A stretch of 42,508 bases of DNA, from the NCBI RefSeq assembly GCF_900095385.1, contig NZ_FMID01000045.1, positions 1 through 42,508 of the forward strand, in the 5' to 3' direction. Each line of letters begins with the position of its first letter. Within the stretch, counting starts at the first letter, position 1. Of the stretch, positions 527-2,399 are shown piece by piece. The stretch comes from Methanoculleus chikugoensis (GTDB taxonomy: Archaea; Halobacteriota; Methanomicrobia; Methanomicrobiales; Methanoculleaceae). The translations under genes and the position numbers were made by a program. The notes under the pieces are model-generated. The model worked only from the letters and a program-made list of their open reading frames with translations, was not told where the DNA came from and did no database searches.

Positions 527-1018
527 TCAAAACCCCTCTCCCTTCCTCAGTTTAACCAGAACCCCGCCCCCGCGCTCTAAAACGACAATCCTCTCCATGA
601 TCTCCTCCCGCAGCCCCCCCGGGAGCCTTGCCGCCTGCCACTCCCGCTCCGCAGCAACACCAGCCACGGCGTTCGCCGGGTCCGCCGCCGCGACGGCTTT
701 AAGGGCATAGTACGCCGCCCCGTAGGCGTGCTGGGGGACGTGAGCGGTCGCCACCGCCTGGCCCGCGGCCCGGGCGGCAAACTGGGCCGCGCTCCCCCCA
801 TCTGCATCGCGGGCGGCGGCATGAGCACCGAGAGAGGCCCCCCGGATCTCGGCCATCCGGAATACGCCCGTCCGGACCCAGGTGCGACATACCTCGATGG
901 CTCTGCGCGGCCGGTCGTCCTCCGGGCGGGCCTCCTCAAAGAGCGGGAGGACCCGCTCGGCGCAGTCCGCGGCCCAGGTGGCCATTATTATCTGGTCATG
1001 TCTGCTGTATTTTTTCAT
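527..1018 (-). CDS. Imm-5-like putative immunity protein
   Basis: A 163-residue, alanine-rich, probably all-helical protein. The N-terminal pattern (WAADCAERVLPLFEEARPEDDRPRRAIEV) matches what I know of the Imm-5-like family, small proteins first predicted as immunity proteins of polymorphic toxin systems. The family is common in actinobacteria and scattered in methanogens, and most members have no demonstrated function. The middle segment, with repeated Ala and AA pairs, also fits that family. No signal peptide or membrane segment is seen. It sits between a radical SAM/SPASM fragment and a Fic gene on the same strand, with no obvious toxin partner in view. The Fic gene ends at 1063, 45 bases upstream of this start, so co-transcription with fic is plausible. 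The name should not be read as proof of immunity function. Confidence 0.6.
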   Translation of the reverse strand: MKKYSRHDQIIMATWAADCAERVLPLFEEARPEDDRPRRAIEVCRTWVRTGVFRMAEIRGASLGAHAAARDADGGSAAQFAARAAGQAVATAHVPQHAYGAAYYALKAVAAADPANAVAGVAAEREWQAARLPGGLREEIMERIVVLERGGGVLVKLRKGEGF

Positions 1019-1062: not shown

Positions 1063-2220
1063 CTATATCCGCGTGCCTTCCTCGATAATCCTGACGTAGT
1101 CCACAAACATATACTGTTTATATCGCTCTTTTCCGGTGATCTCTTCGAGGATACCGATACTCTCGAATCGCCCTACGAGTTTGGTTGCGGCCTGGCGGCT
1201 GATTCGTAACTCCTCCATCGCCTGCCCTATCGTGATGATGGGGCGATCAAAGAGCGTATCGATCAGTTTTACCGCATAAACGCCGCCGATATTGTTCTCC
1301 AGTAACTTCTCGATCAGTGTCTCCTTGAGCTGGATAATTCTCTTCGCCGTCTCGATGGAGTTGTTGGAGACAGATATGACACCCCGGAGGAAGAACTCAA
1401 ACCACGCCTCCCAGTTCCCCTCGTATCGGATACCGTTGAGGAGTATATAATACTCCTCGCGATTCTTCTTCAGGTAATAACTGAGATAGAGCAGCGGCCT
1501 CGCCAGAACACCCCTGGAACAGAGATAAAACGTGATCATCAACCTGCCCATTCTTCCGTTGCCGTCCAGATACGGATGGATCGTCTCCAGTTGAGCGTGG
1601 ATGAGAGCGGCCTTTATCAGTGTCGGCGTCTTATCGCTGCTCTGGATAAACCGTTCCAGATCCTGCATGAGCCCCGGAACCTGCTCCGGCGGCGGCGGGA
1701 CAAACACCGCGTCCTGAATTGTCCCTCCCGGCAGACCGATCCAGTTCTGAACGTGCCGCAACCGGCCCGGAAGTGTATGCGAGCCTCGTATCCCCTGGAT
1801 CAGAAAACGGTGAATCTCGTTCATCAGATCGAGAGAAAGTGGTGAAAAATCCAGTTTCTCTATGCCGTGGTGGAGTGCCTTTATGTAATTCAGCACTTCC
1901 TGTATCTCGTTGATGTCGTCTCTGGGCCGGATGTGCGCCTCGAACTCAAGAATACCCTGGAGAGAGGCCTGCGTGCCCTCGATCTGAGAACTCAGCAGGG
2001 CCTCTTTCCTGATATACATCGCTACGAAGAGATCCGGATTTGGAAGCACCTGAGTAACCCCGTCAAGGCGAGCCAGGGCGCTGTTGGCTTTCGATAACAG
2101 ATACAGGAGCCCCTCATCGAGGAAGAGATCTTCCGGGGGTAAGGGATGCGGAATGAACGCATCGTATCCGCCTTCCTGACGCATGAAAACCCCTGCCCTA
2201 TTATCGGGATACCGCTCCAT
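1063..2220 (-). CDS. Fic/DOC family AMP-transferase, class II, with C-terminal winged helix
   Basis: Fic proteins transfer AMP (or another phosphate-containing group) from a nucleotide to a hydroxyl side chain of a target protein. The catalytic motif HPYLDGNGRMGR is intact, with His at about residue 215 and the GNGR phosphate-binding loop. An inhibitory motif of the [S/T]xxxE[G/N] type (SSQIEG, residues 77-82) lies before the core, which defines class II, self-inhibited enzymes. The N-terminus (RAGVFMRQEGGYDAFIPHPLPP) fits the Fic N-terminal domain, which supports the start at 2220 rather than the Met at 2184. The last about 80 residues contain a helix-turn-helix-like stretch (TIGQAMEELRISRQAATKLVGRF), a likely winged helix. 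With 385 residues it is full length. The array of palindromes at 2258-2399 lies directly upstream, suggesting control by a dimeric DNA-binding protein, possibly Fic itself. Its target protein is unknown. Confidence 0.9.
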   Translation of the reverse strand: MERYPDNRAGVFMRQEGGYDAFIPHPLPPEDLFLDEGLLYLLSKANSALARLDGVTQVLPNPDLFVAMYIRKEALLSSQIEGTQASLQGILEFEAHIRPRDDINEIQEVLNYIKALHHGIEKLDFSPLSLDLMNEIHRFLIQGIRGSHTLPGRLRHVQNWIGLPGGTIQDAVFVPPPPEQVPGLMQDLERFIQSSDKTPTLIKAALIHAQLETIHPYLDGNGRMGRLMITFYLCSRGVLARPLLYLSYYLKKNREEYYILLNGIRYEGNWEAWFEFFLRGVISVSNNSIETAKRIIQLKETLIEKLLENNIGGVYAVKLIDTLFDRPIITIGQAMEELRISRQAATKLVGRFESIGILEEITGKERYKQYMFVDYVRIIEEGTRI

Positions 2221-2257
2221 ACAGCATAATTCGATTTACGACAATATGAGTTGCCCT

Positions 2258-2399
2258 GTAAGTCAACTTATGTTGACTTACACGAGGTTGCCGTCTCTAA
2301 GTCAACCGGGCGGAACTTACCGATCACACGGGAGCGTAAGTCAACCTGTGTTGACATGGCGGCGGTGCCCTCCTTCTAAGTCAACTTTTGTTGACTTAG
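2258..2399. repeat. Array of four phased 24-bp palindromes upstream of fic
   Basis: Four copies of a 10-4-10 inverted repeat with arms GTAAGTCAAC and GTTGACTTAC start at 2258, 2297, 2336 and 2376, so the spacing is 39, 39 and 40 bases. Copy 1 (2258-2281, spacer TTAT) and copy 4 (2376-2399, spacer TTTT, outermost base pair changed) have perfect arms. Copy 3 (2336-2359) keeps the inner GTCAAC/GTTGAC, and copy 2 (2297-2320) has an intact left arm but a degenerate right arm. The sequences between copies are unrelated. The array begins 38 bases upstream of the fic start. This looks like a cooperative operator for a dimeric regulator; the regulator itself is not identified. Confidence 0.85.

Follow-up and report, generated by a model that had tools for sequence, protein, structure and literature searches.

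The fic locus and its upstream sites

The fic gene lies on the minus strand (1063..2220) of the window, the whole 42,508-nucleotide stretch of Methanoculleus chikugoensis DNA that was analysed. From its motifs, domains and fold, its 385-aa product is predicted to be a class II SoFic-type Fic AMP-transferase, and AMPylation and a toxic or anti-phage activity are predicted with it. The Fic motif HPFx(D/E)GNGRxxR is intact (HPYLDGNGRMGR, residues 215-226; Pfam Fic, 81.9 bits), and the class II N-terminal inhibitory motif (S/T)xxxE(G/N) is present as SSQIEG (residues 77-82), with a core that is invariant in the alignment. The Fic_N, Fic, HTH_13 and SoFic-like_C domains (PF13784, PF02661, PF11972 and PF21248) all score above cut-off. 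PADLOC assigns the protein to SoFic (E 3e-118), and its score of 183.7 bits with the NCBIfam equivalog ProtAdlyltaseSoFic, against a cut-off of 550, places it as related to this narrow equivalog but outside it. The best Foldseek matches of the AlphaFold2 model (mean pLDDT 91) are SoFic structures (3zcn, E 1e-18). The model has a C-terminal winged helix-turn-helix (residues 314-372, 1105..1281, minus strand; HTH_13 and SoFic-like_C in Pfam), in which the recognition helix, starting RQAATKL, spans residues 342-354 (1159..1197, minus strand). Its first residue, R342, changes with the operator among homologues (see below).

Directly 3' of fic is an Imm5-like gene encoding 163 aa (527..1018, minus strand). 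The model of its product has weak fold matches only, the best over the full length being with 7jtu_B, one chain in the structure of a T6SS cytidine deaminase toxin (Foldseek probability 0.94, E 1.2). The same genome has a second Fic protein, 35% identical to the first (L078, G000:C54:51404-52537); its matched stretch contains one in-frame TAA, and its gene lacks an operator array.

Four sites start at 2258, 2297, 2336 and 2376, at spacings of 39, 39 and 40 bp, and form an array 38-179 bp 5' of the fic start codon (2220, minus strand). The first-pass annotation described them as four phased 10-4-10 palindromes, all with arms GTAAGTCAAC / GTTGACTTAC; the starts and the period of 39-40 are correct, but only the sites at 2258 and 2376 are perfect, and the uniform arms were too strong a claim, as the sites at 2297 and 2336 are asymmetric. 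Site 1, nearest to fic (2258..2281), is the palindrome GTAAGTCAAC-TTAT-GTTGACTTAC, with 10/10 positions of the arms paired and its centre about 49 bp 5' of the start codon. Site 4, the farthest (2376..2399), reads CTAAGTCAAC-TTTT-GTTGACTTAG and also pairs at 10/10, with C/G as the outer pair. One arm is intact and the other degenerate in site 2 (2297..2320; CTAAGTCAAC-CGGG-CGGAACTTAC; 5/10 paired), and the other arm is partly degenerate in site 3 (2336..2359; GTAAGTCAAC-CTGT-GTTGACATGG; 7/10 paired). The left arm TAAGTCAAC is common to 4/4 sites. Between site 1, which adjoins it, and the start codon is a BRE/TATA-like stretch, GGGCAACTCATATTG (2242..2256, minus strand); its TTATATTG-like core is conserved in orthologues, and its spacing to the ATG suggests that the fic transcript is leaderless.

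With up to 3 mismatches allowed, the core TAAGTCAACN4GTTGACTTA has three matches in the window, all inside the array, and none in 100 dinucleotide shuffles of the window. A search of the 2.65-Mb genome found no matches beyond the same three places, and thus the sites are not scattered elsewhere in it. The half-site AAGTCAAC has 24 copies genome-wide, 6 of them in the array.

The central 4-bp loops of the palindromes are far more variable than the arms. Between orthologous palindromes, one loop is often the exact reverse complement of the other (GCAA/TTGC, ATAG/CTAT, ATAA/TTAT), with unchanged arms, as if the tip of a hairpin flips. Such loops are seen in the window (2268-2271 and 2386-2389), at L031-L035, and at the fic-less Imm5 loci L057-L068.

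Conservation of the array with fic

The phased architecture, with sites every 39-40 bp, is found in nearly all orthologues at 54-100% identity, and in most archaeal fic genes about 49-50 bp separate the centre of the nearest site from the start codon. Close orthologues (79-92% identity) in Methanoculleus, Methanocalculus and one Methanocorpusculaceae genome have 3-6 sites each, whose distances from the start codon hardly differ (-49, -88, -127/-128, -166 to -168, and in some also -208 and -247). Differences per base between genomes are 0-0.19 for the arms and higher for the linkers (0.35-0.57) and the 4-bp spacers (0.33-0.54). The neighbours of these orthologues vary (ACT/DUF711 genes, tRNA and others) while the array stays. 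Thus, the array is not an operator of the divergent ACT/DUF711 genes, because it remains with fic where a tRNA or other genes replace them. In one genome (L072, 2760-3180) fic is shortened to about its first 50 codons, and the four-site array 5' of it is still recognisable.

The reverse-complementary loops would be expected if the palindromes were RNA or DNA hairpins, that is structural or recombination sites that flip, rather than protein operators. However, arm changes are uncompensated, with TATGTCAAC facing GTTGACGTA and TAAGGTAAC facing GTTGACTTA, and an RNA hairpin is rejected for this reason. The asymmetry of site 2 (2297) is itself kept in orthologues, where a TAAGTT.CG-like arm faces GTTGACTTA, and the phasing to the start codon is constant. 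Taken with the uncompensated changes, this makes hairpins of any kind a highly improbable explanation.

Phased sites are also found before fic in archaea of the phylum, Methanomicrobiales among them (54-71% identity), in a WOR-3 bacterium (58%) and, more weakly, before homologues on bacterial plasmids (41-50%). The site sequence differs by clade, and the 40-base spacing recurs. Dyad spacings of 38-41 bp number 23, versus 1.05 in shuffles, and those of 77-81 bp number 16, versus 0.5 expected. In 35 non-redundant upstream regions, 8-mer repeats at lag 40 number 576, versus about 35 per lag in shuffles, an approximately 16-fold excess. In the relatives of 41-50% identity, the sum over lags 38-41 is 99, versus 31 in the control. 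The 13 paralogues of 30-40% identity have no lag-40 peak (62 versus 55) and no array, ruling out the array as a general trait of all Fic_N/Fic proteins. Chance, or a random repeat, is ruled out as the origin of the sites by the shuffles, the uniqueness in the genome, and the spacing and lag statistics. At the WOR-3 locus (L023), the array before fic is of GTCA type and a TATA-like region is similar to that of the archaea, beside a bacterial promoter and Shine-Dalgarno sequence; this fic gene is likely to be an old transfer between domains.

The reader of the sites

The operator changes with the first residue of the Fic recognition helix. GTCAN8TGAC sites accompany 23/25 proteins with Arg or Lys at residue 342 and none of the 38 proteins with another residue there (Gly, Ala, Pro, Ser, Thr, His, Gln, Asn, Ile or Tyr); the latter carry, for example, GTWAN8TWAC or unrelated palindromes. 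The two exceptions among the Arg/Lys proteins (L037 and L038) have one arm of GGTAAC type and the other GTTGAC. In a tree built without the winged helix, the residue class needs 3 changes and the operator class 4. Independent pairs all go in the expected direction, although there are only 2 or 3 of them, and with so few independent changes behind the association a phylogenetic sign test cannot reach significance. One genome (G032) has both a TAAGTCAAC-type fic (90% identity) and a TAAGTAAAC-type fic (61%), each with its own operator. Because the site sequence follows residue 342, and because two fic genes in one genome have their own site types, Fic itself, through its own winged helix, is the likely binder, and self-recognition is favoured over a common trans-acting factor.

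Some arrays stand apart from fic. About ten Methanoculleus genomes without this fic have two sites 40 bp apart directly 5' of the Imm5-like gene, which is kept in many such genomes (L057-L068) like an orphan immunity gene. In nine aligned fic-less genomes, the arms vary at 3/36 columns, versus 27/60 just upstream (p = 2e-4) and 30/55 downstream (p = 5e-6); they are not clearly less variable than the linker (4/18, p = 0.2). A search of one fic-less genome with the array (G003) found no Fic-domain protein, nor could a further copy of the Fic winged helix be detected there. In the tree of the Imm5-like gene, fic-bearing and fic-less genomes are intermixed, and its many weakly supported branches suggest recombination at this gene. 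Part of the site conservation may be due to a single fic-less allele that spread recently, and the arrays in these genomes may mean either that the sites have a second reader or that fic was lost recently. The Imm5-like protein is unlikely to be the binder: Imm5-like genes without any array exist (G026 and G001), array-bearing fic genes without an Imm5-like gene are common, and the modelled protein is a helical bundle with no match to an HTH-type fold.

The fic-less arrays, including the one in the genome without any Fic protein, are what would be expected if an unlinked transcription factor, and not the Fic helix, bound the array and controlled the fic-Imm5 transcription unit. However, with sites that are nearly unique in each genome, such a factor would have to be dedicated to a single target. 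Its operator would also drift along with the recognition helix of another protein, differ between the two fic genes of one genome, and accompany fic into the WOR-3 bacterium and bacterial plasmids. The lack of a detectable second winged helix in G003 also counts against it, and we consider an unlinked factor unlikely, though not negligibly so.

Binding by Fic was the proposal of the first-pass annotation, and it gains from the change of operator with recognition helix and from the separate site types in G032. The same annotation took the sites to be selected, phased, candidate protein-binding sites that belong to fic; this is borne out by their presence upstream of close orthologues, in conserved positions beside different neighbours, and by their not being scattered over the genome. 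It also raised the possibility that AMP transfer by Fic onto its own DNA-binding part may alter this regulation.

Direction of control and comparison with known Fic systems

The array is probably an autoregulatory operator of fic, at which Fic dimers would bind cooperatively and repress their own promoter. The SoFic-type protein would use its C-terminal winged helix to bind as a dimer at each 22-bp site, and dimers on adjacent sites, 39-40 bp apart, would assist each other; repression would be cooperative because of this assistance, and would keep the level of a potentially toxic AMP-transferase low. The comparison of sequences shows that the phased architecture is conserved, that it goes with fic and not with the neighbouring genes, and that the operator changes with the recognition helix; that Fic is the binder, that it binds cooperatively and that it represses instead of activating is inferred.

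At the WOR-3 locus, a perfect TTGACA-16-TATAAT promoter (12/12 with the sigma-70 consensus) ends at 2836 of L023, with the start of the first site at about 2839; thus the array overlaps the transcription start. This position directly 3' of a perfect promoter suggests that the direction of control is repression. In a Methanosarcina-like group, a further in-phase site overlaps the start codon.

An activator would fit the archaeal arrangement too, in which a site lies beside the BRE/TATA stretch. Binding immediately 5' of the BRE is common among archaeal activators, and the nearest site lies at a constant distance from the TATA-like stretch and the start codon, as it might if Fic activated its own gene, or both activated and repressed it, by recruiting TBP/TFB from that site. 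However, sites at and downstream of the transcription start in WOR-3, and over the start codon in the Methanosarcina-like group, do not fit this reading, a toxic enzyme activating its own gene would be an unstable arrangement, and the related protein CccR is a repressor (PMC9755527). Activation is thus very unlikely, and repression by Fic of its own promoter is preferred.

Three known systems bear comparison, and two of them, CccR and CbFic2, are precedents for the preferred reading. The Fic-HTH protein CccR of Yersinia pseudotuberculosis acts on AGATAATCAT-N26-ATGATAATCT to repress the promoter of its own gene (PMC9755527). Like the Fic described here, it is class II with a C-terminal HTH and has inverted repeats in its own promoter, and it is a self-repressing dimer (PMC9755527). 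However, CccR has one inverted repeat, with 10-bp boxes 26 bp apart and a 46-nt footprint, whereas the arms here are 4 bp apart, in 22-bp sites repeated every 39-40 bp, and the organisms are archaea; 10-bp boxes at 26-bp spacing were not found at the fic array. A further difference from CccR is that the archaeal protein is not known to be secreted. In the open papers found, CccR is the only Fic-HTH protein with a known DNA site.

SoFic and EcSofic (3eqx, 3zcn; PMC12249575) are the best match in both sequence and fold, and share with this Fic the N-terminal inhibitory motif, the winged-helix C-terminal domain and a gene directly downstream. In the case of EcSofic, an anti-phage toxin, the downstream gene encodes the 47-aa antitoxin AS1 (PMC12249575), whereas here it encodes the 163-aa Imm5-like protein. 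No description of a SoFic operator array was found in the open literature.

CbFic2 of Coxiella burnetii, like this Fic a class II protein with a wHTH, forms dimers on DNA of at least 20 bp, which switches it between AMPylation and deAMPylation (PMC10628234). No specific site is known for it, the studies having used random DNA and host histone H3 (PMC10628234). By analogy with DNA for CbFic2, the phased array might assemble a chain of Fic dimers that is both an off-switch and a reservoir of inactive or deAMPylating enzyme, a reading that we hold to be unlikely. Were it true, loss of the array-bound form, for example through an infection that disrupts DNA, would release active enzyme, and in fic-less relatives it would be a second factor, or Fic coming from elsewhere, that reads the arrays 5' of the Imm5-like gene.

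SoFic-type enzymes are widespread anti-phage toxins. The comparison predicts the binding place and the base-reading residue for dozens of archaeal and some bacterial members of the family. These predictions offer a ready test of how a toxin gene is kept quiet, and winged-helix specificity can be studied on operators and proteins that vary together in nature. Compact phased fic operators with helix covariation were not described in the openly accessible papers searched. Fic autorepression through inverted repeats is already known from CccR, and what is new here is the compact phased operators in archaea together with the covariation of operator and helix.
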